Source of the DNA: Devosia sp. 2618
GTDB taxonomy: Bacteria > Pseudomonadota > Alphaproteobacteria > Rhizobiales > Devosiaceae
NCBI RefSeq assembly: GCF_040546815.1
Contig: NZ_JBEPOO010000001.1
Location: forward strand, 2,418,001 to 2,482,000
Reading direction: 5' to 3'
DNA length: 64,000 nt
Shown piece by piece: positions 13,996-41,470 of this stretch. Within the stretch, counting starts at the first letter, position 1. Each line of letters begins with the position of its first letter. The position numbers and the translations under genes were made by a program. The notes beneath the pieces are model-generated. The model was given only the letters and a program-made list of their open reading frames with translations, had not been told where the DNA came from and did no database searches.

Positions 13996-14229
13996 ATGCC
14001 AACTTTGTTTTTTGTTCAGGGCTTTCGGCAAAAAGGCCGGAAGTTTGAACCGGATCAGCCACAGCAGGCCAAAACTGCCGAAGCCGCGATAGCGTCTGCC
14101 GAGCGGATTGCCCCAGCGCGCACCGGGGTATGGGCCTATTCGGCCAACGTAGACGTCGAAGCCGACACCTACGATGAACCACAGGTGTTGTTCAAGGCAG
14201 GTACACTTCCACCGGGCGTCGCTGATTGA
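13996..14229 (+). CDS. Small conserved-looking hypothetical protein, 77 residues
   Basis: Starts MPTLFFVQGFRQKGRKFEPD and ends LFKAGTLPPGVAD, with a helix rich in A, E and R in the middle. Small proteins with a YFVQGF-like start and a GxLPPG-like end occur in Hyphomicrobiales, recalled from general knowledge rather than a search. A GTG three bases upstream (13993) is an alternative start. It is isolated in decayed DNA, so expression is uncertain. Function unknown. Confidence 0.5.
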   Translation: MPTLFFVQGFRQKGRKFEPDQPQQAKTAEAAIASAERIAPARTGVWAYSANVDVEADTYDEPQVLFKAGTLPPGVAD

Positions 14230-14406
14230 AACTCATGGCGGTTCTATGAGCACAGGCACCAAGGCGGATACGCCCAAACTCGCCCACGCCGTTTTGCGAT
14301 CTGCAAGCGCTTTTCCCAGCCATCCGGGTGCTTTGCCTTTTTGACCGCGGCCTTTGAAAATCGACTTCGCCAGCGCCGCGAACGCCCCCCCCTCCCCAAG
14401 ACTTAG

Positions 14407-14591
14407 TCACAAGGTCTGCTGCGTTGAAGTCTGCGTACTGTTAAAGCCGCTTGTCATAAATCCCCAGTGTTCTTCGGACCACGGGCGATAATAGGGTTGC
14501 TCCCGGCGAGCGGCATCTTCTTTTCGGCTCGGGTCAAGACCATTTTCGGCCAACTTCTGGCGCACATCCTTCGCAAGCGTTGGGTAACTTT
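14407..14591 (-). pseudogene. C-terminal remnant of an unknown protein-coding gene
   Basis: On the minus strand the frame from about 14591 to TGA 14407 reads LAKDVRQKLAENGLDPSRKE and then REQPYYRPWSEEHWGFMTSG before ending STQQTL. This looks like genuine protein but has no start codon and is preceded by an in-frame stop. The IS3 remnant begins about 40 bp beyond, so the insertion may have destroyed the gene's 5' part. Family not recognised. Confidence 0.3.
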
Positions 14592-14629
14592 ATCTGCTTG
14601 CCGTTGGTATGATCTGAACCCTTAGATAT

Positions 14630-15362
14630 TGAAGGACGATCGAACGCTTGGCTCAAGAAGCTGCTGGCCGAAGCAATGCTGGACAACGCCATCCTCAAGG
14701 ATGTCGCCGCAAAGAATGGTGACGCCCGACGCGAAGCGTGATGCTGTGGCCCACGCCTGCTTGCTGCATGGCGTGAGCCAGCGGCGGGCGTGTGAAGCTC
14801 TTGAGGTTGATCGATCGAGCATGCGGAATCGCAGCACTAGGCCCGCCGACCAGGAACTGCGCGAAGCGATGAAGTCCGTGGCGTCGGAGCGTCCGCGGTT
14901 GGGCTATCGGCGCATCCACGTGATGTTGCAGCGCCAGGGGATCGCGATGAACATCAAAACGCTCAGGCGGCTCGATGGCGAGTGGAGGCTTTCAGGTGCG
15001 CAAGCGCGGCGGTCGAAAGCGAGCTCTAGGCACCCGGCGACCTATGCTCGTTCCTGACCGGCCCAACAAGCGCTGGAGCCTCGACTTCGTCTCCGATGCC
15101 TTCACCGATGTCGCCGCTTCCGGGTGCTGACCGTGGTGAACGACCATACGCGGGAGGGCCTGGCGCTGGTCGTCGATACATCGCTATTCGGCCAACGGGT
15201 ATCACGCCAGCTCGACGGCATCATCGCCAGGCGCAGCCGCCCCCTCACCGTGGTCAGCGACAACGGGACCGAGTTCACCAGCATGGCGATCCTGCGCTGG
15301 CCTCAGGATCGGCAGACTGATTGACACTATATTGCTCCCCGCAAGCCGATGCAGAACGCGTG
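14630..15362 (+). mobile_element. IS3-family transposase remnant (orfAB, frameshifted and truncated)
   Basis: Three frames together read the end of OrfA (KKLLAEAMLDNAILKDVAAK) and then OrfB. OrfB has MVTPDAKRDAVAHACLLHGV, RPRLGYRRIHVMLQRQGI, PNKRWSLDFVSDAF and the DDE core VVNDHTREGLALVVDTS and SDNGTEFTSMAILRW. This is the IS3 family, probably its IS407-like group. Frame changes lie near 14980 and 15110, a stop replaces Trp after RQTD near 15320, and similarity ends near 15362 at HYIAPRKPMQNA. The 3' part and both inverted repeats were not found, so the element is dead. Confidence 0.75.
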
Positions 15363-15809
15363 AGGGGCATGCCAGCCCAAATTCTTCCATAACGCCTACC
15401 CAAAAGCTTGATGTAGCTATTGAAGTGGCTTTGGGGCAAATTACCGGACAGTTCAACACGATCCCCTTCTTTTCAGAGATAGGCCGTCGGGCAACCGCTC
15501 GGAGCTGCCATGATAGCACACTCTGCCGCGAAGCAGAGTTTACGTCCGTGCAGTCATGAGCTCGGAATGTGCCGACGCCCGTGCCTTCGGAGCTCGACAG
15601 GGACCTAGCTATCGAAATGCTCAAGTGGAACTACAACCTGCTTAGATGCGATGCAACCAGCTTCGCATGATCGTCAAAAGCTATATTTCGCTGGCAAAAA
15701 TCTACTCCACAGATAAGGAGTAGGTTGGAAAAATAACGTCACACATCACGTGCTTATTATCTTCAGCGGGATATAATGGCATGCCCCCAGAATACAATTA
15801 GAAAGAAAC

Positions 15810-17126
15810 ATGCGAAAAACTGAGCGTACCGCACGGCGAAGACTCAGCGGGGATTTGACCCTTGTTACGTCTCTTGGAGGCCGTACTCGGCAACATCGAT
15901 ACCTTGCCCACTTCCGCTCGTTCTTATGGACGTCAGTGCTATCGATCGCGTTGCAGGTGGTGACCTACCTGTTGTCGGACGTCCGCTCCAACGATATGCC
16001 TGCCGAAAGAGTGATCATTACGATGACGGCTCTGGGCCTGCCGGTCATCATAAACTCGCTCGTGCTGGCTGCCTTCCGTCGCCACGACTCACCGATCATT
16101 TCGGCTGTCGTGGTTTATGGCGCGCTGTTTTGTGCCATGGTCACTGTTATATCGGCTACACGGATGCAGATAAGCTATGGCGCCCTAGCCTCCTGCGCCG
16201 CGATAGGGACCTTTTTTGCGTGCGCCGCAAACTACCGCTTCCACTTACTAACTGGCGAAAAAATACGCATCATGCCCTTCGAGGGAGCGGAGCAGATTGC
16301 TGAACAAATTCCAGGGTCGCAGATCCTGACACCGGAGGAGCTGGAAAGCTCGCCAACAGAGATAAATTTCGACGTACTGCTAATCGATGATCACTCGTAC
16401 AAGACGGCCGAGTGGGCGGAGTTCATCTCGCGCATGCATGTTCTGGGCATCGACATCGTCAATTGCGAGAGCTTTCTCGAACGCGTTTCTGGTAGCGTAA
16501 GAGTTCAGAAGTTCGAGTTTTCTCAGGTCGCTTACTCGCCAAGCCAGTTATTGTACGCTCGGGTCAAACGCTATCTCGATCTCACCTTTGTGATCTTGTT
16601 TTCACCGCTGCTCATAACCATTTCCGTACTGGCGGGCGCATATATCTACGCCCGAGATCCTGGGCCTATATTGTTTGTGCAAATCAGGCGTGGCTACGGA
16701 AATCACCCGTTCCGCATGTACAAGTTCAGAACGATGTTCCAAGGGACAGCGGGCGGGTCAACCGTTGCAGGTGATCCGCGCATTATCCCGGGCTGCCGAA
16801 TCCTACGAAAGTTGCGCATCGACGAAATTCCGCAGTGTTTTAACATCTTGAAGGGCGACATGAGCCTGATCGGACCTCGACCGTCGGCAGAATATCTGGC
16901 TAAAAAGCTGATCAAAATGGAGCCTAAATACGCTTACCGCTGCGTAGTTCCGCCAGGCATCACCGGATGGGCCCAAGTCAATTCCGGGCATATACACAAT
17001 CTGGACGACGAGATGATCAAGCTGTCCCAAGACTTGTACTATATAAAGCGGTTCTCGATTGATCTTGATCTGGTCATTCTCGTCAAGACGATAAAAACTG
17101 TCTTGTTCGGTTCTGGAGCAAAATAG
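15810..17126 (+). CDS. Exopolysaccharide initiating sugar transferase (polyprenyl glycosylphosphotransferase)
   Basis: Transfers a sugar-1-phosphate to undecaprenyl phosphate to start repeat-unit synthesis. The N-terminal half holds about four hydrophobic segments (residues 35-140). A linker follows, then the conserved bacterial sugar transferase domain from about residue 250: KRYLDLTFVILFSPLLIT, FRMYKFRTM, LRKLRIDEIPQCFNILKGDM, SLIGPRP and PGITGWAQVN. At 438 residues it is slightly short for the WcaJ/ExoY-like two-domain type. It converges on the GT2 gene at 17218 and serves the EPS cluster although it is transcribed on the opposite strand. Confidence 0.87.
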   Translation: MRKTERTARRRLSGDLTLVTSLGGRTRQHRYLAHFRSFLWTSVLSIALQVVTYLLSDVRSNDMPAERVIITMTALGLPVIINSLVLAAFRRHDSPIISAVVVYGALFCAMVTVISATRMQISYGALASCAAIGTFFACAANYRFHLLTGEKIRIMPFEGAEQIAEQIPGSQILTPEELESSPTEINFDVLLIDDHSYKTAEWAEFISRMHVLGIDIVNCESFLERVSGSVRVQKFEFSQVAYSPSQLLYARVKRYLDLTFVILFSPLLITISVLAGAYIYARDPGPILFVQIRRGYGNHPFRMYKFRTMFQGTAGGSTVAGDPRIIPGCRILRKLRIDEIPQCFNILKGDMSLIGPRPSAEYLAKKLIKMEPKYAYRCVVPPGITGWAQVNSGHIHNLDDEMIKLSQDLYYIKRFSIDLDLVILVKTIKTVLFGSGAK

Positions 17127-29667: not shown

Positions 29668-30581
29668 CTATGTGGGCGTGGGCGCCCTATAGCGCGGTGT
29701 AAAGGCCTTCGCCTCACGGATAACCTGCGCCATGCTGACCGCTATTGGCTTGCCTGCCAGTTTCAACCCATGCCAGCCGCTGCGGCGCTTGGCGTAATGA
29801 CTGGTGGCGGTGCGCATGGAGGCGTGACCGGCAGCGGCGGCAACTTCGTGCGGGGTCATCCAGGTTTTTGCCGTCGCCATGCCGACATGGCGTAGCGTGT
29901 AAAAGCTCACCCGCCGAATGTTCAGAGTCTTGCAGATGCGGGCGAGCCGCGCCGAGAGGCGATCGTGGAATTTCTTCCAACTTTCGGCCGCAGCGGCAAC
30001 TTCGCCAAAATGGCTGAGGAATTTTACCAGCGACGCCTTGGCTTTGGGCGCCATATTGTCTGACGAACGTTTGCGGACGTCTCCGTTGGCCCTGCCATTG
30101 GTGGCCTTAGCATTCGGCACGATCAGCGTGTTGCCGTCGACGCGGGCTCCCAGATATTCCACCGGCCGCAGGAACAGCGCCACGCCATAGGCAAGTAGCC
30201 CGCGGATCAACTGGTCATCGGCTCGCCTCGAGTTGTCCAGATGTTGCATGAGTGCGAGAAATTGATCCCGCTTCAGGCTCTTGCGCTTCCGGGCCGATGT
30301 CTGCTTTGGGCCGCTGGTCCTGGGAATTGGCCCCGTCTGCAGGCGTGCTATTATGCGCTCATGACTACCGCATGCAGGCATATCGCGGCGGCGCGATACT
30401 GGCGCACCGTGCTTTCGGCCCAACGCGCATGCTGTGAGGTGAACCAGTCGATGACCTGCTCCATGCCGGTTCCGAAGCTGTCAAGGCACGCTGCCTGTTG
30501 CAGGGCCAGAAAACGCCGGACATAAGCGGCCTCCGTTTCCGCCGTTTTGGTGACCGTCCTTCCAGTGCAGTCCCGAACCAT
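29668..30581 (-). pseudogene. Tyrosine recombinase/integrase, frameshifted
   Basis: The N-terminal SAM-like core-binding part (from ATG 30581, MVRDCTGRTVTKTAETEAAY, behind GGGGAG) runs to a stop near 30351. The catalytic part continues in another frame to 29668. It keeps FLRPVEYL (Arg I), FYTLRHVGMATAK (LRH) and AAGHASMRTATSHYAK (GH and nucleophile Tyr). One base change near 30350-30360 would join them. It sits beside a second broken integrase, consistent with layered insertions near tRNA-Gln. Confidence 0.7.
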
Positions 30582-30766: not shown

Positions 30767-32074
30767 TTACCTCGGGGCGCGCTTCTGCGCTTTCCCTGCC
30801 TTCGACCAGGGCGCAATCTCCTTGGCCACAACCCAAGGCAAAAGCCGGATCGGCTGCGCTTTGAGGTGGGCGGTCACCACCGGCAGCTTCAGCAAGTGGA
30901 CCATCTGCCGCTGCAGGCTAATCGGATTGCAGTAGCGCTCGGTCGTTTCCGATTCCCCGCCATGGCCGAGAAGGTCGGCGCGAAATTCCCGCGAGACTTC
31001 TTCCTGCTTCAACTCGTCGCCAAAGAAGTGGCGGATCTGGTGCGGGGTGAAGTCCACCGCCCGCAGGGATGGCAGCATCTGCTTGTAGAGCCGGTCGCCG
31101 AGCGGCGAGCGGGTCGAAGGGGAATACAGATCGGGAAAAAGGCGCTCGCAACCAAGCGCACTGATGGCCTCGACATAGTCGAGGAAACCAAGACGGATGA
31201 CTTCGGGATGCAGCGCCAGGTTGCGGACCGACTGCAAATTCTTGACCCGGCGGAGGGCATTGGGGGCGACGTGGATATAGGGGATGTCGCCGTTGTCGGT
31301 GATCACATCATCCACCGCCAGGCCGCAGTGTTCTTCCCGCCGCGCGCCTTCATAAGCGGCGAGAATGGTGCAGAAGAACTCCGCACGATGGAAGAATTCC
31401 GTTCCGGGCGTATCGATATCGTCCCAATGCGCATAACCAGTAAAGACCGGGCTCTCGAACAGCGTCTGCACCTTCGCGCCGGGCCTGTGGCGGGCAGCGT
31501 CGCTTCATCCGTCACAGCAGGCGATGGGGTTCCGTCGCCACGCATCTCCTCCAGCAGCGCGCCAAAATCCAGCTCGGAGACCGGCCGGTTCCCATAGCGC
31601 TGCTCGGCGCCCAGCAGGGCTTCGCCCAAAGCCCTGAGATAAACCGGCTGGGCCTTTACCAGGCTGATGGCATTGACCGGCGCACCAGCGCTTTCGATGT
31701 GCTGCGCCCTGCTCGGACAACAGCTTGTAGGCGAGACCCTGTGCCAGTTCCGTGTCGAGCAGTTCCGTTCGCTCAGTTGTCGGATTGGCACGCTCAAGGG
31801 CAGCCAAAAGATTCAGTTTCTGCTGGTGCTCAACCAGCACCGCCTTGAAGAGCGAACTAAGCTGCTCCCGGCTGATCTGTGCGCGCTCGTCCATGAAAAC
31901 CTCCATTGCCTGCGCATCGAGCGGCGGGACCAGGCGACGGGCGACAGCCACGTCCTTGGTTCTGAGGTTCACCTTGACATGAGAGATTTGCAAGCGTCTT
32001 GCGAGGTGATCCGGCAATCGGCGCTGCCAGTAATAGACAGCGCCTCGACGTAGACGATGGGGTCCGCGTGCCAT
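30767..32074 (-). pseudogene. Site-specific tyrosine integrase with two frameshifts
   Basis: From ATG 32074, RGPHRLRRGAVYYWQRRLPD is the typical start of DUF6538-type phage integrases. Frame changes near 31710 and 31470 separate three pieces. The catalytic piece has EGARREEHCGL (Arg I), FTPHQIRHFFG (HxxRH) and LLGHGGESETTERYCNP (GH, Tyr), so the core residues survive. If the transposon at 32190 is removed, this gene lies about 130 bp from the 3' end of tRNA-Gln, the usual place for an island integrase. Confidence 0.75.
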
Positions 32075-32189
32075 TTGTACCTGCCTTATGTATCACAGGC
32101 ATGTACCCCCGTTACTGCGACTCAAGCCCTAGAGCAGGATTGCTCTGGAAAACTCGAAGCCCGCAACGCAAGGGAAATTGACAAGCGCA

Positions 32190-32313
32190 TGTCCGGCCCA
32201 CGTAACACTGCGACGCAAGTGCCCCAGTATCTGGGGATTCTCATTTTAACACCGCGACGAAATTCAACTTAAGAATGCGACGCGGGGGTGGATTTTCAGC
32301 TTAAGACTGCGAC
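32190..32313. repeat. Transposon left end with four end repeats
   Basis: Read on the minus strand there are four related sites: CGTCGCAGTGTTA (32203-32215, in the terminal repeat), CGTCGCGGTGTTAA (32246-32259), CGTCGCATTCTTAAGTTGAA (32263-32282) and GTCGCAGTCTTAAGCTGAAA (ending 32313). The core GTCGCA-N2-TTAA-N2-TGAA recurs at irregular spacing, as in TnsB/TniA-type ends. The last site is only about 30 bp from the first protein-like codons of the ATPase gene. Confidence 0.75.
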
Positions 32314-32411
32314 TGCGAATTAACTCTAATAAATCCAGATACTTAAGAGATCTCTTCCGACCTGGGCAGTCGGACCTGGAGTTCTTCAGGTTTTTCTCGC
32401 TGGCGGTCGAG

Positions 32412-34160
32412 TTGGTGTGCGTGGACAAGGTACTCAGCGCAGTGCACGAGCTTCGCCTGGCTGACGAACTTGAACTCCAAGCCGTTCACGAGATCGCGGT
32501 CGTCGAGGATTTCGTCGCCGAGTTTCCAAGGCTTACCGGGGCCGATCAGGCAGTCCGGACGTTTTCGGATCTCGCCCGGATGTGTCGCAATCTCGTCAGA
32601 CGCATGAACGAGGCAAGCGGACGCGGGCAAGTGGCCGAACTCGTCGGAGGATTGCCTGCGCGCGAACCCTACGAACTCTTGGGGACCCTCTGCGATAAGC
32701 TTTCGGGGGTTATCCGCTTCAAGACGGCAGCTTCGAGGCCCACACCGGGCTTCAAATTCTGCCTCGATGACTGCGAAGTCCTCAGCCCGACACAACTCCG
32801 CTCCATCAATACCTTGGTCAGGAAGAGCCGCTTCCCTGTTTCTTGGGTGATCTGCGCCGTCGGTGAGACGATCGAGGGAGGCGACACGTTCATTAAGGAA
32901 CGGCCGTTGACCGACGCCGACCGTCGCGTGATCTCGCTCGACGAGCGGGACCGTCCCGAGTTCGTGTCGCTTTGCGAGGCGGTTGTCAGCTTGCGGACCT
33001 ATTTCTCGCTGCCGCAGAACGACAGGCCGCCGGTGACCGGCGATACCATTGCCCGGCAGTTTTCCCTGCGCGAGAAACTCGGGGTAGTCGGTGTGAACGA
33101 CATCCTCGGGATCGTCCTGGCACGCTCGACGAGACCCCTCGCAAGGCAAATCGCCGCCGCTGCCACTCGCCTCTCGGATCTCGCCAGATCGTCCAAGGGA
33201 GGCGTGCCGAACACGATTCTCGGTGACGTCCCCCCATACTACCAAGCCTACCTGTTATGGCACTGGACAGGGAGAGAAGATGCGTTCGTCGCTACGGCTG
33301 CGCCAAGCGACATGGTGCGGATAGACCAACACCTCACGCAACTGTCGTCACCGGCATTCCAGGCTTGGATGCGACGCAAGATGGTCGGGACCATGCTGCA
33401 TATCTCGGCACGCCTCGGTTTCAAGCAGCTACCATTGTCGGGCAGCAACATCGTCACGTCATTGGCAGACGGATCGATCCGGGATTTCCTCGAGATCATG
33501 GCGGCGATCTATGACGCGTACAAAGCCAGCAATAGCAAGGTCGACGCTAGCCAGACGCTGAAACGTTTCGTCACGTCACGGACCAAGATCGCCACCCGTG
33601 TGCAGACGATCGGCATCTACAATGCCAGCACTCAGTACTTCGACGGCGTGGGCGCCTTGAGCGATGCGAGCTCGACCTCCATGGCGAGGTTGATCGAGGC
33701 TCTCGGTAAGTACACGAGCCGGCTGCAGAGCACGGCCGACGACCCTTCGGTGCTTGCCACCACGGAGCGGGGAGTATTCGTGCTCGACGGAAACCAGTAC
33801 CTGTGGCCCGAGGACGATACCGTCACCCAGTACGTTCGCCAGGTTATCGCGCGTGCCGAACTTTCAGGCTACTTGCGGACGATCACCTTGAAGCGGCGGC
33901 CAGCCGGGACGGCGACCTCGCCTCGATCCTCCGGGACCTTGACCGGCTTCAGGCTCCATCGCCGGTTCGCGCCGTTCTTCATGTTCTCCTACCGTGGCGC
34001 GTACGAACCCGTCCGGGTGTCGACGGAGTATCTTGCGGCCCTTTGCGCTGCAGAGTCCGCTATCACGCCCGATGCCTGGGTCGCCGGCGCTGCGCCACTC
34101 GAGGCGGACACACTCGAACAACTCTCGCTGCCTCTTTCCGGGGATGACGATGAAGCCTGA
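32412..34160 (+). CDS. ORC/CDC6-like AAA ATPase fragment lacking Walker A (5'-truncated)
   Basis: A 582-residue frame from TTG 32412. It is open back to 32250 and protein-like from about 32340 (YLRDLFRPGQSDLEFFRFFS). FCLDDCEVLSPTQLRSINTLV resembles a Walker B with following helix, and WVICAVG a sensor-1 strand. This is the pattern of the bacterial ORC/CDC6-like ATPase family as I recall it, not a searched match. The N-terminal part that should hold the P-loop is missing: the frame runs straight into the transposon left end. The partner gene overlaps its 3' end by 17 bp. Probably part of an accessory, possibly defensive, pair that has been cut. Confidence 0.5.
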   Translation: MVCVDKVLSAVHELRLADELELQAVHEIAVVEDFVAEFPRLTGADQAVRTFSDLARMCRNLVRRMNEASGRGQVAELVGGLPAREPYELLGTLCDKLSGVIRFKTAASRPTPGFKFCLDDCEVLSPTQLRSINTLVRKSRFPVSWVICAVGETIEGGDTFIKERPLTDADRRVISLDERDRPEFVSLCEAVVSLRTYFSLPQNDRPPVTGDTIARQFSLREKLGVVGVNDILGIVLARSTRPLARQIAAAATRLSDLARSSKGGVPNTILGDVPPYYQAYLLWHWTGREDAFVATAAPSDMVRIDQHLTQLSSPAFQAWMRRKMVGTMLHISARLGFKQLPLSGSNIVTSLADGSIRDFLEIMAAIYDAYKASNSKVDASQTLKRFVTSRTKIATRVQTIGIYNASTQYFDGVGALSDASSTSMARLIEALGKYTSRLQSTADDPSVLATTERGVFVLDGNQYLWPEDDTVTQYVRQVIARAELSGYLRTITLKRRPAGTATSPRSSGTLTGFRLHRRFAPFFMFSYRGAYEPVRVSTEYLAALCAAESAITPDAWVAGAAPLEADTLEQLSLPLSGDDDEA

Positions 34161-35163
34161 TGCATCTATCGGCGCTTTGCACGTCACCCAGGGCGAGTTG
34201 ACGAATGACGCTCTTCTCAAGAAGTACGATCTGGGGGTGGCGGCGATCAGTTGGGAAAGCCGGACGGTGACGGCTCTCCCCTTCATGGCCGGTCGCTCGG
34301 AAGAAACCGTGATGCTGAGATTCGCATCGACCGATAAAAGCGTGGACGACCTGAAAGACGTCATGCAGTCAGACGCGGACAAGATACTCGGTTCGTACAG
34401 CCTGCACTCCCTTGAACGATCGACTGTCTGGAACGAGAACGTCGCTGATCTCGACAGGCTGGTGTCGGAGGCCGTCAGGAGAGCCGGCAGGCCGATCTCG
34501 GTGCTGCTGGACATGTCTTGTCTTCCGAAGCGCTATTCACTGCTCTTGCTCGGTCGGGGCTTCCGGCAGGAGCATGTTGCCCGGATGGACATTCTCTACG
34601 CCGAGGCAGAACGGTACGAGATGACGAGGCTGAAGCATTCGGGCGCGGTGAACATCGTATCGGAGGGCGCGTCGACTACGGTTCAAGTGCCATACTTCGA
34701 AGGAGACAATTATACGCCCGACAAGCGAGACCTGTTCATCTCTCTCGGCGGCGAGCTGACAAACGCGGTCCCCATCGTCGAGCGCTTCGAGGCCAGCGAC
34801 CTGCGACTGTATTCGGTCGAAGACACTCAAGCGCGGGTACCGAGCGCGCAGTTCGAGGGAGAAGCGCCGATAAGGCAGCGCTTGTCCGAGATGCCGAACG
34901 CGTACAACATGACGTTCGCACTTGGCGATGTGCTCGGATTGGCCGAGGATGTGCTGAGGACCAAACAACTGCCAACAACATGCCTGGCGATAGGTCCGAA
35001 GACCCACGCCTTGGCATTCGGACTGGCCGCTCTGGCCGACGACTCGATCCAATTGGTTTGCCGTTCGCCAGGTAGGTACTTGGCAAACGACGCCATACCT
35101 TCCGGTAAGATCTTCCTGTACCAGATCCAGGACCGCTTCGAGCCCAGAGCCTATTGGAGCTGA
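34144..35163 (+). CDS. Unknown partner protein of the ORC-like ATPase
   Basis: A protein of 339 residues from ATG 34144 (MTMKPDASIGALHVTQGELT), overlapping the ATPase gene by 17 bp. ATG 34150 is an alternative. Repeated beta-strand/helix blocks (GVAAISWESRTVTALPFM, ISVLLDMSCLPKRYSLLLLG, RDLFISLGGELTNAVPIVE, TTCLAIGPKTHALAFGLAA) suggest a Rossmann-like or two-lobed alpha/beta fold, perhaps a sensor or nucleotide-binding domain. No catalytic motif is recognised. The tight overlap implies it works with the ATPase. Confidence 0.6.
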   Translation: MTMKPDASIGALHVTQGELTNDALLKKYDLGVAAISWESRTVTALPFMAGRSEETVMLRFASTDKSVDDLKDVMQSDADKILGSYSLHSLERSTVWNENVADLDRLVSEAVRRAGRPISVLLDMSCLPKRYSLLLLGRGFRQEHVARMDILYAEAERYEMTRLKHSGAVNIVSEGASTTVQVPYFEGDNYTPDKRDLFISLGGELTNAVPIVERFEASDLRLYSVEDTQARVPSAQFEGEAPIRQRLSEMPNAYNMTFALGDVLGLAEDVLRTKQLPTTCLAIGPKTHALAFGLAALADDSIQLVCRSPGRYLANDAIPSGKIFLYQIQDRFEPRAYWS

Positions 35164-35352
35164 AGTGTGGGGTTGCTTGGTGGACCTCGTACCAGAAAAG
35201 TACGCCTTCGCCCCCTCATTAGTGCTCGTATGTCCAGATCGATGTTAGTGACATTGCTGTCACCCAATTCTCCGATGCCCAGCCCGATGAACTGGGCATC
35301 TGGGCAGTGTTTCCATCACGTCGCTTTGTCCCTGCGCGAGTGAAGGCGCTCA

Positions 35353-35571
35353 GGCGGACTTTTCGGCGCCGTCTTTATCGGCACCGCCATTTTGATGGTG
35401 CCCCGCCTCGGCGCGGCGACGGCCATGGCGCTTATCGTGGTGGGCCAGATGCTGGCGTCCATCGCCATCGACCACTTCGGCGTTTTGGGCACGACGCAGC
35501 ATAGCGCGGGTCCGGTACGCATCGTTGGGGCATTGCTGCTCCTTGCCGGCGTTGTCATGGTCAGACTCTGA
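35353..35571 (+). pseudogene. DMT-family transporter (DUF606/YdcZ) C-terminal fragment
   Basis: A frame with no start codon reads GGLFGAVFIGTAILMVPRLG, then GQMLASIAIDHFGVLG, and ends ALLLLAGVVMVRL at TGA 35571. This is the last 72 residues of a YdcZ-type small drug/metabolite transporter. An in-frame stop lies just before it. The rest of the gene is missing, so it is a fragment carried between the two cargo modules of the transposon. Confidence 0.7.
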
Positions 35572-35683
35572 GAGATCGAATCCCGATCTTTGGACGTACG
35601 GAGCCGACGGTCACGTTCTGACCCCAAAGCACCGTCGCGCTGCTATCATGGCGCATGAAGCACCAGGCAAAGGATTCGAAGCT

Positions 35684-37579
35684 ATGACGGGCGACGCGTG
35701 CGACGATGGCGAGGCGACAGCACAGGCTGAAGCGCCCTGGCCGCCGCAAAGCGTCGTCACACCATCTGACTTCCGGAAAGTCGACTACAATGCCATCGTC
35801 CGGGGCCTGAAGTCAGCCTATGACGGTCGCCTGGAGACGGCCTTCATGGAGGTCGCGCGAGCGAGCAGGGACAAGGAGCCTGATTTCAGCGTCTATCGCT
35901 TGCTGGGGTCGGCATGTGGCCTGCATTTCAGGTTGCATGACAAAGCCGGCGCCTTCGGGCCCAAGATGACCTACGGCAACAGCCGGACGCCTATTCCTGA
36001 GGATTGGCTCGGCGACCAGACAGACCATATCTTCGAAATCCTTGATGACGTCGAGCACCCGGCTCTCCGGGCAAGATTGGCCGATGTCGTCTGGACCAAT
36101 GATCGCAAGAAGGGAAAGGCGGCGGCGATCGCCGTGGTCGCCTATTGCGAATGCGTCGAGGGCCTTCTGAGCGGAACTTACGAGGACCGTTTTGCGACGG
36201 AAAACGAGGTATCCCTCGAGGAAGTTGACCTCATCGAGCGGGCGTCGCAGATCCACTCCCGGTCGAACAAGCGAACGGCGCCAATGCACGATCGGGTCGC
36301 GACGTTGCTGGAAACCCTCTATGTCGCCGCCTTGGGCCATGTCGACGTCGTACCCTTAAGTCGACTGGCGACGCTCCGGTCACGGTATTCCCTGATCACA
36401 ATGGATCAACTGTCCGCGGACATGGAATCTGCGGCATCCGCTGCCGAGCAACTTCCCGATCCCAACCCGATGGTGATCAAGGACCTCTGGGATACGGCCG
36501 CCTTCGCTCACGGCGAGGCCAAACGCTTAGACGATCAACGCCGGTGTCAACTCGCGGGTGTCGAGCAGACACTCAGGATGGCGCCGCAAACCGGCTCCGC
36601 TTCTGGAGCCGCGCACTGGTACCGACGGGCGATTGGCGAGTTGAGGCAGATACCGGGCACGGAGGCACGGCGTGAAGAACTCCGTAAGGAATTGCGGAGT
36701 CTCCAGGAAAAGTCGCTCGAGGAGATGGGGGCGTTCGAAATCCCGATCGACCTGTCCGACATCGTCAGCGGGACGATCGAGATCTTTGAGAAGCTGACAT
36801 TACCGGAGGGGCTCAGGCAATTTGCCCTACTTGCGCGTCCGCAGAGCGTTGCCGACATGCGCGCAAAGGCGATGGAACCGGAAACCGGCATTGCGGGTCT
36901 GTTTTCGGCTACACATCTCGATAACGAGGGAAAGATCGTTGCGGAAATCGAGGGAGCGTCCCTTGACGGTTCAACTCCCAGCGAAGAGCGGATCAAGAGC
37001 AAGATGGTCCAGCAACTGCAGTTCGCTATGGACATCGCAGTGAAAGGCCAGATCGAGCCCGCACGTCGATTCCTCTCGGGAGAGTTTCCGCTCTCCGAAA
37101 GGCACTTTCGCTTCATCGTCCTCCAGAGCCCGTTCGTTCCTCACCAGCATGCGGCGACCTTTGCACTCGGTCTTGCGCGCCTTGTGCAGGGAGACCTCCT
37201 CTCGGCCGGTCCGATCCTCATCCCGCAACTGGAGCACTGCCTGCGGCACGTGCTGATCAACGCGAGCACGGATACTTCGAAGATGCGTAACGACCTCACA
37301 CAGGAGGATCGGTCGCTCTCAACCCTGCTGGACAGCTATCGCAAGGAACTGGTCGATATTTTCGGCGAGGACATCGTCACCTATATCGATCTGATCTTCA
37401 ATCATCGCCCGGGACCCGCTTTACGACACGAGTTTGCCCACGGCAAGGTCGGCGACCGCAGCTACGGGGATCCGGCGATCTACTTCGCCTGTTGCTTCAT
37501 CTACCTGCTGGTGTGCCTGCCACTGCAGTCGGCGTGGGCGCAATATGTCGCGCCGGCGATCGAGGCTGGCTCGTTCTGA
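35684..37579 (+). CDS. DUF4209-domain protein with HEPN-like RX4H motif
   Basis: A 631-residue, mostly helical protein. The N-terminal part (HPALRARLADVVW near residues 130-142) matches the region that precedes DUF4209. The C-terminal GPALRHEFAHGKVGD fits the DUF4209 signature RNxxxHG with His for Asn. R-x4-H is also the catalytic motif of HEPN RNases, so RNA cleavage is a reasonable guess. ATG 35684 is chosen because AAAGGA precedes it by 9 bases; ATG 35648 is in frame without such a site. It stands alone between a transporter fragment and a small zinc-ribbon-like gene in the transposon cargo. Confidence 0.65.
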   Translation: MTGDACDDGEATAQAEAPWPPQSVVTPSDFRKVDYNAIVRGLKSAYDGRLETAFMEVARASRDKEPDFSVYRLLGSACGLHFRLHDKAGAFGPKMTYGNSRTPIPEDWLGDQTDHIFEILDDVEHPALRARLADVVWTNDRKKGKAAAIAVVAYCECVEGLLSGTYEDRFATENEVSLEEVDLIERASQIHSRSNKRTAPMHDRVATLLETLYVAALGHVDVVPLSRLATLRSRYSLITMDQLSADMESAASAAEQLPDPNPMVIKDLWDTAAFAHGEAKRLDDQRRCQLAGVEQTLRMAPQTGSASGAAHWYRRAIGELRQIPGTEARREELRKELRSLQEKSLEEMGAFEIPIDLSDIVSGTIEIFEKLTLPEGLRQFALLARPQSVADMRAKAMEPETGIAGLFSATHLDNEGKIVAEIEGASLDGSTPSEERIKSKMVQQLQFAMDIAVKGQIEPARRFLSGEFPLSERHFRFIVLQSPFVPHQHAATFALGLARLVQGDLLSAGPILIPQLEHCLRHVLINASTDTSKMRNDLTQEDRSLSTLLDSYRKELVDIFGEDIVTYIDLIFNHRPGPALRHEFAHGKVGDRSYGDPAIYFACCFIYLLVCLPLQSAWAQYVAPAIEAGSF

Positions 37580-37629
37580 CCGAGGGCCGTCGAAACAGAC
37601 GACGGCACGCGGCCGGCTGCGAAGACAGC

Positions 37630-38025
37630 TCATCTACCGAACTTGCGGCCACCCCTGCGCTTGCCGACCCATGGCAGCTCGGTCTGCGCTACGGCCTCGC
37701 GAGCGCGCTGCATGGCGACGAGTTCATCCGTCGATAGCGGCACGGTGCCAGCGCCATGCGAGCCTGCGAATTCGGGGCGGCGTCCGGCGTGGCCCAGAGC
37801 GAATGTCGGATGGTACCACCCACATATCGAGCATCGTAACCGGCCCGAAAGGTGGTCTCGTCCCAAGTAGAAGTCGAACGCCCATCCCAGATGAGCGGCA
37901 AGAACGTCCAGTTCCAGTCGGGCATCATGGCTGCAGACCCAGTAGTGACTGCAATAGGCGTGGATCGCACGGCCAGTGTCACGGAAGTCCTCGAGTGTGC
38001 GTATCAGGCGCGTGAGCGTGATCAA
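37630..38025 (-). CDS. Small hypothetical protein with zinc-ribbon-like cysteines
   Basis: About 131 residues from TTG 38025 (AGGA lies about 8 bases upstream; no ATG available). RAIHAYCSHYWVCSHDARLE supplies Cys/His pairs and GRLRCSICGWYHPTF a CxxC, together a likely zinc-ribbon. The charged C-terminal tail ends RGGRKFGR. Similar small zinc-ribbon proteins are common in Hyphomicrobiales islands. The frame is open a further 25 codons upstream, so the true start is uncertain. Function unknown. Confidence 0.5.
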   Translation of the reverse strand: MITLTRLIRTLEDFRDTGRAIHAYCSHYWVCSHDARLELDVLAAHLGWAFDFYLGRDHLSGRLRCSICGWYHPTFALGHAGRRPEFAGSHGAGTVPLSTDELVAMQRAREAVAQTELPWVGKRRGGRKFGR

Positions 38026-38103
38026 TGGAAGTTCCTGCCCGTAGGCAAGGCATCGGTGAGGCGCTTGACCACCGTTGCTTGATATTACTCCTGCTCCCTG
38101 TTT

Positions 38104-39590
38104 CTACCCTTCGGGCCACCCGACTTTGCTTCGTCGGCCCTGGCGATGACCCGTTCGCCGAATATCGGTGCCGCCAGCGATCCTGGCCATATCCGGCGTC
38201 AGATCGACGAATTCTTTGGCGATGACATGGATTACGATGCCTTCACGCTGCAGAATGCCCCGCACGCCGAGGACCCTGGCGCCAAGCACGACCCGCCGGT
38301 TGGCCTCGAAAACCTTGGGCCAGACGATAATGTTGGCGACGCCGCTCTCGTCCTCGAGCGTCGCGAAGATCACACCGCTTGCAGTGCCTGGCCGCTGCCG
38401 GACAAGCACCAGTCCTGATACCATCACGGTGTGGCCGGGGTTCATGGTCCGCAACTCGTCGTTCGGCACGAACCGCCGCCGTGTCAGGTCTTCCCTCAGA
38501 AAGCTCATGGGGTGCGCCTTGAGCGAAATCGACAGTGCCCGGTAGTCGTGGATGACTTCCTCGCCCGGTGGCATGGGCGGCAATCCACTTTCGTCGTCGA
38601 CCCATCGTGGCGGCGCACCGCCGGACTGAAACAATGGCAGGGTCTCGGCGCCATGCATGCCGATCAACCCTGTGATGGCCCACATGGCATCGCGCCGGTT
38701 GAGCCCGATAGACTGGAACGCGTCCGCATCGGCCAGCGCCGAGGACCGATGGAGAAAGCCCCGTCCGCAGCCAAAGGTCACGAACGCTGTCGTAGCCGCC
38801 TCCGCGACGGGCGACGATTAGGTTGGCATGCTCGATGCGCAACCCCTTCACGAGGTTGAAACCGAGGCGTACGCCCATGGAGCCCCAGATGTCCTCTTCC
38901 ATTTCGGAATGCTTGGGCGCCAGGGTCAGGCCGGCCTGGTTGGTTCGCTCCATCACGTTTTCGAGGTCGCTCAGGTTGATATCCACCGGCCGGACGTCGA
39001 CACCGTGGTCCATGGCGTCACGGATGATCTGGCTGGGCGCATAAAAGCCCATGGGCTGGCTGTTCAGCAGCGCGGCGGCGAAAACGTCCGGGTAACGGCA
39101 TTTGATCCAGCAGCTGACATAGACCAGCAGCGCGAAAGAAGCGGCATGGGATTCCGGAAAACCATACGACCCAAAACCCTCGATTTGCCGAAAACACGCC
39201 TCGGCGAAATCCCGGGTGTAGCCGTTGCCGAGCATCCCGTTGATGAATTTGTCTTCGAAGATCCCGACCCCGCCGGTCCTTTTGAACGTGGCCATTGCGC
39301 GCCGCAAACGGTCCGCCTCCGCCGGTGTGAAACCGGCGGCCACGATGGCGATCTTCATCGCCTGCTCCTGAAAGAGCGGCACACCGTACGTTTTTTCAGG
39401 ACATGTTCGAGTTCGGGTGACGGATAGGAGGTCGCCTCCAATCCCTGCCGTCGCTTGAGATATGGGTGCACCATCGCGCCCTGAATCGGCCCGGGGCGCA
39501 CGATGGCCACCTCGATGACCAGGTCGTAGAATTCACTCGGCTTCAACCGCGGCAGCATGGACATCTGCGCCCGGCTCTCGATCTGGGCCG
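38104..39590 (-). pseudogene. dnaE2: Error-prone DNA polymerase DnaE2, C-terminal fragment with two frameshifts
   Basis: Pieces in three frames read the second half of DnaE2: [72 protein letters not shown] and [20 protein letters not shown], followed by the OB-fold region [20 protein letters not shown]. Frame changes lie near 39393 (an A6 run) and 38735. The N-terminal half with the PHP domain is absent: similarity stops near 39590, where the opposite strand becomes TniQ sequence. No imuA/imuB is present. Non-functional remnant. Confidence 0.82.
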
Positions 39591-40298
39591 GCTGAGCTCG
39601 CCAGTGTCCTTAGAATACCAGCATCTGGGGCGCAAACCCTCTCAAAAGCCGGAATCCTGATGGAGAGCATCACCGTAAAAGGTGCCCAAACACACCGACG
39701 GTACAGTCGGCGGTCGCTTGATGAATTCGTGGGTACATTGGCGAAATCGTCCGCGGTGACAGGCAACTCGGACACCACTCTCCGGCAAGCAATGAAAGCT
39801 GTATGGTGGCCGTACGGAAATTCTGCAATCGCGCTCGTGTACGTTTCCCTTTTCCCATTCAACCTCATTGGGGTGGGGCCTCATCACCTGGACTGGCGTG
39901 ACGCGATCTGCGTGGCAGACGTTGACCACTTCCATAACGAACTGCCTCGTCTCGCCGAGCGCTTTGGGGCTGGAGGAATACATATAACTAAGTCTGGAGT
40001 GATGAATCGGTTGAGGTGCTCCAACGCGACCTTCGACAGTCTGGTATGCCGTAACCTGTTGCGGCCTGCGAAGGGCCCGCTAAAGCACCACCGCTTCTTG
40101 GTTAGTGACGTTGAGGCGTTTCGCAAAAAGTACGTTCTGCTGGACGAGGCTGCGTCGACCTTTGGGTTCAAAAGTCCGAAGCAAGCATTCTTCATGGCCA
40201 CAAGGCTGGGCATGCGCCCAAAGTATGCCTGGGGCAGCAATATGCCACTCTTGTTTGAAAGGTCCGACTTCGAAAGGGTGCGGAGTGCCTTGAACTAA
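39591..40298 (+). pseudogene. TniQ-family transposition protein, C-terminal fragment
   Basis: The open frame starts without a start codon at about 39591 ([20 protein letters not shown]) and contains RRYSRRSLDEFVGTLAKS. Two helix-turn-helix-like segments follow (ITKSGVMNRLRCSNATFDSL and LLDEAASTFGFKSPKQAFFM). The RRFS-x-x-SLDxF start of a repeated DNA-binding region is how alphaproteobacterial TniQ/TnsD-like proteins end. ATG 39660 could start a 212-residue product. The N-terminal zinc-finger part is gone, replaced by the dnaE2 fragment. TniQ is the target-selection protein of Tn7/Tn5053-like transposons, which fits the ends found here. Confidence 0.5.
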
Positions 40299-40324
40299 GA
40301 GGGGCGCCTCGAGAGGCGCCTCTC
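40299..40324 (+). terminator. Hairpin after TniQ fragment
   Basis: GAGGGGCGCCT and AGGCGCCTCTC form an 11-bp stem with one mismatch just past the TniQ stop codon. No T-run follows, so termination may be weak. Confidence 0.4.
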
Positions 40325-40344
40325 CGATATTTGTTGTTGTCTGC

Positions 40345-40554
40345 CTAATGTATAGTGTCCCGCCGACTGTGCAGGAAGGTGCGCAACACCTGGTGGCGGT
40401 CGTTCCTCACTGCAGCGTTGATGTGGCTGCCGAACGTATCGTCGTCGGCGAAAGCCACGTCATCGTCCACTTCTACCAGAGTAACGGTCGCCCGACGGAC
40501 ATGCGGCATCGGCAAGGGTGAGCGCTTGCCTGGCAGTTCAATGTTTAGGGTCAT
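40345..40554 (-). CDS. Small hypothetical protein, 69 residues
   Basis: ATG 40554 has a strong AGGAGG six bases upstream, which argues that this is a translated gene. The protein starts MTLNIELPGKRSPLPMPHVR, has an acidic middle (VEVDDDVAFADDD) and ends FLHSRRDTIH. It faces the TniQ fragment tail to tail. The 330 bp before it hold an AAGGAT box array that might control it. No family recognised; a small regulator or antitoxin is possible but unsupported. Confidence 0.5.
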   Translation of the reverse strand: MTLNIELPGKRSPLPMPHVRRATVTLVEVDDDVAFADDDTFGSHINAAVRNDRHQVLRTFLHSRRDTIH

Positions 40555-40800
40555 GAGACCTCCTGAGTTGTGCACTCGGAAGCCAAAACAAGGTAGCGGC
40601 TTGACTAACCGAATCAGTCAAGGCAGTATTGTTTTGCGCTTTAGAGTGCGATTGGAAAGACTATGTGGGAGCCTGGGCGTGTGAGATTGGCTCCCATTTA
40701 GTTTTCAAGAACATCTCCTCTCAAACATCATTTCGGCTACACCGCCGACACAACGATAATGCCTGATTCCTTTTAATGTTCACATCCCATTTTATTTTCT

Positions 40801-40912
40801 AATCCTTTGACTTATCAGAACAATATCTATCCTTGATATTTGAATACTGTAATCCTTTGAATCATCAATTTAGCAAGGATTGACGCCCAATCTATCCTTG
40901 GTGGCGAAGGAT
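40801..40912. repeat. Array of six ATCCTT/AAGGAT boxes
   Basis: Within 112 bp: AATCCTTTGA (40801-40810), ATCCTTGA (40829-40836), AATCCTTTGA again (40851-40860), CAAGGATTGA (40874-40883), CTATCCTTGG (from 40892) and GAAGGATAGA (from 40906). Four read one way and two the other. The stretch before it (40690-40880) is AT-rich compared with the rest. It could be an operator array, a promoter region for the small gene at 40345-40554, or replication-type iterons. Confidence 0.45.
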
Positions 40913-41168
40913 AGATCGGCGCGAGGCGCCCCGAGAGGCTGTCAGCTTTCAATCGAAATTTTGGATCTCCACCGGCGACATCTGCCGGCGGATTGAAAAT
41001 GCCCATGCGAAAAACTACCCCTCGCCTCGGGATCAAATAGTCTTGGATCGCGGAATTGGTGGTAGCTTGATGAAGCTTGCAGCCCGAACCGCCAGCAATA
41101 TTGCGCACCTCTCCGGTAGGGTGCTTTCAATCTGTGAGCTGATTGCAGATTTAGGCGGCGTCGTCTGA
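40884..41168 (+). pseudogene. Coding-like fragment without start codon, unknown
   Basis: From 40884 to TGA 41168 one frame reads sequence such as SKFWISTGDICRRIENAHAK, YPSPRDQIVLDRGIGGSLMK and ISICELIADLGG-like text at the end (VLSICELIADLGGVV). Composition is protein-like, but an in-frame TGA at 40881 precedes it and no early ATG or GTG exists. Probably the end of a broken gene inside the transposon. Family not recognised. Confidence 0.3.
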
Positions 41169-41335
41169 AGGTGCGACCTGCCGGCGCCCGGAGCATTCGC
41201 TCAACGGAATCCCAAAGCGTGTCCGGTGAACGATCCCATGAAGCACGCCGGAACACAGCGTGGTCCTGAGATCCAGGCACGGCCGGATCGGACTAGCTGC
41301 CAAATCTGGGCCGGTTTTCGACCCGCCCCGGTAGC

Positions 41336-41382
41336 GTCGCAGTCTTAAAGCGCAATCGTCGCAGTTATTCGCGGTGCGGACA
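41336..41382. repeat. Transposon right end with two end repeats
   Basis: GTCGCAGTCTTAA at 41336-41348 and GTCGCAGTTATT at 41358-41369 lead into the terminal GGTGCGGACA at 41382. Both copies are oriented outward, as at the left end. GCGCA follows at 41383-41387, matching the left flank. The end lies 13 bp short of the tRNA-Gln 3' terminus. Confidence 0.75.
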
Positions 41383-41395
41383 GCGCACCAAATCA

Positions 41396-41470
41396 TGGCT
41401 GGGGCGCCAGGATTCGAACCTGGGAATGTCGGTACCAAAAACCGATGCCTTACCACTTGGCGACGCCCCA
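41396..41470 (-). tRNA. tRNA-Gln (anticodon TTG)
   Basis: On the minus strand a 75-nt cloverleaf: acceptor TGGGGCG pairs with CGCCCCA, the anticodon loop is TTTTGGT with TTG (Gln) flanked by ATCGG and CCGAC, the T-arm holds GGTTCGAATCC, and CCA is encoded. Its 3' end points at the genomic island and is the likely landing site for the integrase genes and the nearby transposon. Confidence 0.93.

Follow-up and report, generated by a model that had tools for sequence, protein, structure and literature searches.

Transposons of the Tn7 type that use TnsABC with TnsD, such as those homing to glmS, are described in the available parts of PMC8649781 and PMC11406308 as having arrays of repeats at their ends, duplicating 5 bp of target and lying at a fixed distance and in a fixed orientation beside an intact conserved gene, with defence genes as cargo. 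As far as the accessible sections of PMC11406308 go, various tRNA genes have been adopted as home sites on repeated occasions. Among the CRISPR-associated transposons (CASTs), TnsD homing just downstream of a tRNA gene is found in type I-B2 (PmcCAST, tRNA-Val) and type I-D (CyCAST, tRNA-Leu); the portion of PMC10293859 at hand gives a tRNA-Val in the PmcCAST target plasmid and I-D insertion ~30-33 nt past tRNA-Leu. Type V-K CASTs also lie downstream of tRNA genes (PMC9938897, in excerpt). Here we describe a 9.2-kb element beside a tRNA-Gln gene in a 64,000-nt stretch of Devosia sp. 2618 (contig NZ_JBEPOO010000001.1, positions 2,418,001 to 2,482,000), referred to below as the window. The element shares the features of Tn7 listed above, but differs in its home site, tRNA-Gln, and in that the three copies whose two ends are both visible yielded no tns genes. 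It differs from PmcCAST and CyCAST in that no CRISPR or tns genes were seen in it, and it lies only 8 bp past tRNA-Gln compared with the longer CyCAST spacing.

The element is real, has precise boundaries and is a Tn7-type cargo element with a directed insertion site; it represents a new home site for, and a machinery-free form of, a known system. This analysis establishes its boundaries, the empty site, the distance and orientation in four genomes, and the geometry of the end arrays. No published case of Tn7-like homing to tRNA-Gln was found in the literature, which is weak evidence of novelty given that gene names vary and subscription papers were mostly outside the coverage.

Element boundaries and insertion beside tRNA-Gln

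The element is defined by the following features (no strand is assigned unless given):

32190..41382: element, 9,193 bp, TGTCCG...CGGACA; delimited by its ends, an empty site in genome G063 and the right end in genomes G003, G023 and G098
32185..32189: left target repeat GCGCA; read in the sequence and in the end-pair scan
41383..41387: right target repeat GCGCA; read in the sequence and in the end-pair scan
32190..32313: four-site (tRNA-distal) end, presumed TnsB sites; geometry as in G023 and G098
41336..41382: two-site (tRNA-proximal) end, presumed TnsB sites
41396..41470, minus strand: tRNA-Gln (ttg), inferred target gene; predicted intact

The terminal 26-mers are inverted and match at 20 of 26 positions. 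Four 19-nt repeats start at 32196, 32240, 32263 and 32295 in the left end, two more lie at ~41336 and ~41358 in the right end, and 8 bp separate the tRNA-Gln 3' end from the right GCGCA. The window was scanned for inverted 26-mers starting with TG, with identical first 6 bases, at least 20 of 26 positions matching and identical 5-bp flanks, at most 50 kb apart. A single pair was returned, the ends of the element, as against no pairs in 40 dinucleotide shuffles. The 5-bp target duplication typical of Tn7-like transposons is perfect in this copy. A preliminary description made from the sequence alone had already proposed the TGTCCG ends with their 20 of 26 matches, the perfect GCGCA duplication on both flanks, the four left and two right repeats, and insertion 8 bp past tRNA-Gln, all of which are borne out. 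The 9.2-kb element it placed at 32185..41387 is real, but that span includes both target repeats.

The left flank (31704-32183) has a counterpart of 86% identity in G063, which continues with TTGACA, then 14 bp, then tRNA-Gln, and lacks the element. Removal of the element from the window with one GCGCA kept yields the same order, TTGACA, 14 bp and tRNA-Gln, in exact agreement of length. In G002 the integrase flank (76% identity) also runs into tRNA-Gln. The element was therefore inserted later, into the interval between tRNA-Gln and a broken integrase gene (30767-32074). The preliminary description had suggested a search for an empty tRNA-Gln site in relatives, and G063 provides it; uninterrupted homologues of the left junction, which it had regarded as potentially refuting, do occur in G063 and G002, but these are the empty site itself.

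The right-end 26-mer (up to 3 mismatches) is present in 4 of 136 genomes of the family, namely the own genome, G003, G023 and G098, where 13, 13, 12 and 13 bp separate the right end from the 3' end of tRNA-Gln. All four have the same end turned towards the tRNA gene, the outer flanks are unrelated, and the bases between tRNA-Gln and the element are not alike. Since the distance is fixed while the intervening bases differ, the tRNA gene itself is most likely the measuring point. A constant distance and orientation relative to a conserved gene, a hallmark of Tn7-like elements, are thus seen in every genome with the right end, and because these four insertions have unrelated flanks, tRNA-Gln is the target of the element. 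The expectations that the ends would recur as element boundaries elsewhere and that the target would be tRNA-Gln-proximal both held.

The copies differ in length, with 9.2 kb in the window and ~24.6 and ~33.4 kb in G023 and G098. A fifth, degenerate right end lies in G098, 10 bp behind the far end of that genome's first element. At this position (contig C1, ~2695665-2695817, loci L041 and L046) two tRNA-Gln elements apparently follow one another head to tail, and of their right ends the inner one is degenerate. The tRNA-Gln site of G098 has probably been used at least twice, judging from this arrangement.

GGACA at 12-13 bp from tRNA-Gln was found in 1 of 397 genomes of the order, the own one (this sample included 12 Devosia but not G003, G023 or G098), and the far-end pattern in 1 of 385 genomes of the class, again the own one. 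Scanning a public collection with the right end gave two Devosia records and one metagenome-assembled genome labelled Bacillota (L053); this single match, with no tRNA-Gln or second site in view, was set aside as chance. A first relaxed pattern (GGACA, 13 bp, TGGCTGGGG) matched 6 of 75 Devosia genomes but not G023, whose element lies at 12 bp. Among its matches, G066 was rejected despite its position at tRNA-Gln (TGTCCA end, no repeats), and G070 and G074 because they are not at tRNA-Gln. The far-end pattern occurs in at least 2 of the 75, a lower bound because it cannot match the G023 repeat.

End arrays and transposition genes

The two ends carry unequal arrays of putative TnsB sites, four against two, as is typical of Tn7-like transposons, and their spacing is conserved. 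From inner to outer, the far-end spacings are 32-23-44-25 in the window, 31-23-44-25 in G023 and 32-23-44-25 in G098, and the two near-end sites are identically spaced in all four right ends.

Two Devosia loci, L104 (in G013) and L160 (in G074), have a tnsA-tnsB-tnsC-tniQ-like arrangement with a four-repeat array just behind tniQ that shares its motif with the element and is spaced almost identically. A weight matrix trained on the tRNA-Gln elements only, so that scores within the window prove nothing, gave 71.2 for the L104 array and 42.6 for that of L160, whereas no other real stretch scored above 28.0 and no shuffled one above 27.8. A second matrix that also contained the L104 and L160 sites was used only for spacing (31-23-46 in L104, 32-23-46 in L160). 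In comparisons with Pfam, TnsA and AAA/TniB of L104 exceeded the cut-off, TnsB and TniQ fell below it, and in L160 TnsB lay above and TniQ below; “tniQ-like” is therefore the safe label. We read the arrays as pointing to the same TnsB subfamily in L104, L160 and the tRNA-Gln elements, probably with a different selector. Six further two-hit repeat clusters in other Devosia tns loci were taken as chance.

Tn5053/Tn402 transposons have TGT ends and a 5-bp duplication, as does this element, but the operons related to it include TnsA, and this argues for the Tn7 type rather than the Tn5053 type. The Tn5053 family also aims at plasmid resolution sites, according to the available text of PMC11406308, whereas the four insertions here are at chromosomal-type tRNA-Gln genes. 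Of the assignment to the Tn7/Tn5053 superfamily made earlier, the Tn7 part stands, on the repeat arrays and on two Devosia tnsABC-tniQ-like operons with the same motif, and the Tn5053 part does not.

Machinery was sought inside and outside the element. The own genome gave no match to the Pfam models TniQ and Mu-transpos_C, and none to L104 TnsB at E<=1e-30. TnsA, TnsB, TnsC and TniQ of L104 (tblastn, E<=1) matched nothing in the window or in the element stretches of G003 (2.7 kb), G023 and G098. The combination of TnsB, TnsC and TniQ that a Tn7-like transposon has on board was thus not found in the three copies visible at both ends, and for this reason we class the element as non-autonomous, its ends being of the Tn7 type, and do not count it among autonomous Tn7-like transposons. 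It had been called a cargo-only derivative that lost its core genes. At the sensitivity of tblastn, “cargo-only” describes these three copies; that the genes were lost, as opposed to never having been present, is an inference.

Among the 75 Devosia genomes there are 43 TniQ matches in 29 and 28 Mu-transpos_C matches in 19. Stretches of 14-20 kb covered 41 of the 43 TniQ loci (exceptions G087:C19 and G030:C229), and 27 of the 28 Mu-transpos_C matches lie within fetched stretches, the second G071 match being seen only in its 3.2-kb locus. Lone end matches with 7 mismatches (L102, L119, L156) were taken as chance. At E<=1e-30, 6 of the 397 order genomes have a relative of L104 TnsB. For five of these, seven surrounding stretches were read and contained no convincing array; the sixth (G011) is locus L101. 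On plasmids, TnsB relatives were below 60% identity and none spanned 80% of the query, and TniQ gave 3 partial matches. A motif-triple scan of viral sequences returned 11 stretches, all rejected as repeats in unrelated sequence without tns homology. Long TniQ-domain frames (620-730 aa) were noted in G069, G072 and G003:C52, in genomes without a Mu-transpos_C match, and weak TnsB-like tblastn matches lie near some of the long TniQ frames (L105, L108, L112).

Proposed mechanism and competing explanations

Taken together, we consider it very probable that the element is a non-autonomous Tn7-type cargo transposon with TnsB-type ends and a 5-bp duplication, aimed 8 bp past tRNA-Gln. Its end repeats would be bound by TnsB, as the conserved motif suggests, and TnsABC proteins like those of L104 and L160, or a closer set as yet unseen, may act in trans. 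Because the bases separating tRNA and element are not conserved, the tRNA-Gln gene itself would be read, by a protein of the TnsD/TniQ type. The target repeats point to cut-and-join insertion with a 5-bp stagger, and the two-site end lies towards the tRNA. The window copy is possibly an internal-deletion derivative: its ATPase has lost ~105 codons and the tns operon of L104 and L160 lies just inside the four-site end, so that one internal deletion could have removed both the tns operon and the start of the ATPase gene.

Several observations weigh against this interpretation. The target repeats are less convincing elsewhere, with 4 of 5 positions matching in G023 and no clean repeat in G098 (CTCAT versus TCATG), and the far end in G003 is off its contig, leaving ~2.7 kb of that element visible. 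In L104 and L160 the outermost array bases are CGGCATA, not CGGACA, the opposite element ends were not found, and no tRNA gene was found in the fetched stretches; for the latter reason the link to the machinery rests on the end motifs. No ends of the tRNA-Gln element were seen at the Devosia TniQ and Mu-transpos_C loci that were read. A tns locus with exact ends, or a selector at tRNA-Gln, was found neither in the Devosia loci nor in the 397 order genomes, and the far-end pattern led to no tns locus in the 385 class genomes. Full-length relatives with tnsABC or tniAB between the same ends, which the preliminary description had suggested seeking, were thus looked for in all three samples and none was found. 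Conversely, the Pfam models miss some tns proteins: TniQ of L160 is not among the 43 TniQ matches, and TnsB of L100-L103 was found by tblastn and missed by Mu-transpos_C. The absence of machinery from the own genome is therefore not absolute.

The broken DUF6538 integrase gene starts 116 bp outside the left end and relatives of it adjoin tRNA-Gln in G063 and G002, so that the whole block might merely be part of a tyrosine-integrase island in tRNA-Gln, its ends being incidental. This is very unlikely, as G063 joins the integrase side to tRNA-Gln without the element, and G003, G023 and G098 have the right end yet no match to the integrase flank. The direct repeat expected at the far boundary of such an island was also not seen: the 3' 20-mer of tRNA-Gln occurs once in the window (up to 3 mismatches), and the rest of the genome yields weak matches only, among them two 25-bp stretches (88%) that lie 400-450 kb away on the opposite strand. 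The element might also be CRISPR-guided, through a guide matching the tRNA gene, as in the type V-K CASTs, whose guides are directed to tRNA genes according to the accessible text of PMC11406308 and PMC9938897. The longest stretch that the element shares exactly with the tRNA-Gln region measures 11, 12 and 11 nt in the window, G023 and G098, compared with 9-12, 9-13 and 10-12 nt for shuffled tRNA, and thus reveals no exactly matching guide within the element. A guide RNA in cis appears disfavoured on this basis, a mismatched or trans-supplied guide would be compatible, and we regard a CAST-like element as highly improbable overall. The element lacks a transposase by which its family could be decided, and a different 5-bp-duplicating transposase without target choice might have left the element at tRNA-Gln by chance; a right end 12-13 bp from tRNA-Gln, in one orientation, in four of four genomes makes this improbable in the extreme.

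A much stronger contender accepts the site-directed Tn7-type origin but holds that the element is dead, the copies being independent deletion relics of an autonomous transposon that are now immobile. In its favour, the ATPase and polymerase genes of the window are broken and no machinery was found in the own genome at the sensitivity used. On the other hand, G023 and G098 have many long intact frames and contain no tns remnant, and the end repeats of G023 are as well kept as those of the window. We consider this explanation quite possible, though somewhat short of an even chance. A broader proposal, which we advance tentatively as one of several possibilities, extends the non-autonomous transposon to a Devosia family of 9 to ~33 kb: machinery-free islands that combine end arrays with exchangeable cargo (phage defence in two, apparent sugar-transport metabolism in another), home to tRNA-Gln, may stack, and would share TnsABC and a tRNA-Gln-reading selector supplied in trans. 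If true, such islands stand to Tn7 as phage satellites stand to phages.

With this element, tRNA-Gln joins the list of home sites of Tn7-type transposons, and it is shown that whole defence islands can have Tn7-type ends without any transposition gene inside. Such islands would be missed by scans seeded with tnsB or tniQ, and would be found by scans for end arrays beside tRNA genes. The short spacing of 8 bp is also relevant to the way in which selector and TnsC gauge their distance to a tRNA gene.

Cargo and the neighbouring integrase island

Within the element and on its left flank the following genes were recognized:

32367..34160, plus strand: ORC-CDC6-like ATPase gene without about the first 105 of ~702 codons (PF24389; from relatives and alignment start)
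34144..35163, plus strand: 339-aa protein with a CARF6-like match (PADLOC model, E=1.4e-10; a longer enclosing frame has no Pfam match)
35672..37579, plus strand: DUF7380/DUF4209 protein, phage-defence candidate PDC-S39 (PADLOC, E=1.2e-91)
38104..39382, minus strand: error-prone DNA polymerase gene, broken pieces in two frames (partial PRK05672 matches)
39660..40298, plus strand: 212-aa protein with a helix-turn-helix match below cut-off (PF12728, 22.4 bits versus 27)
30767..32074, minus strand, flank outside the element: broken DUF6538 and Phage_integrase gene, split over frames, of an integrase island that probably also uses this tRNA-Gln

The ORC-CDC6-like gene aligns from residue 106-108 of its ~702-aa relatives, at 32367-32373 and ~55 bp inside the innermost left repeat; the missing N-terminal part contains, by eye, what looks like a Walker A motif. 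Together with its CARF6-like neighbour (32367-35163) it might form an undescribed defence pair. G023 and G098 have other cargo in its place. In G023, ten proteins of the ~18 frames listed were scanned. The scanned set comprises a GajB-like helicase, perhaps truncated at its start, PtuA, JetA, JetB, JetD, a reverse transcriptase (RT_III-A), a kinase whose defence matches were moderate, a protein with a weak SIR2 match, a patatin and one protein for which only a helix-turn-helix matched. A further long frame, which lies between JetB and JetD, is presumably JetC. Translations from G098, read by eye, suggest transport, ROK-type regulator and receptor genes.

In Devosia, tRNA-Gln probably also serves as a site for integrase islands, judging from gene neighbourhoods. 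Sequence homologous to the DUF6538 integrase adjoins tRNA-Gln in G063 and G002, and weaker matches lie ~1.7-1.8 kb from it in G030 and G011; a 45-bp match to the integrase flank in G029 was rejected as chance. On the other side of the tRNA in G063, ~11 kb from the empty site, there is a Mu-transpos_C match (G063:C130:17574-17780, L133) with no similarity to L104 TnsB at E<=1e-4. In the window, a 251-aa frame without a Pfam match (29668-30423, minus strand) resembles, by eye, the end of a second tyrosine recombinase. At L160 in G074, a DUF6538 integrase gene (14182-15888) starts immediately beyond the array-bearing end of the tns locus, the same type of neighbour as in the window.

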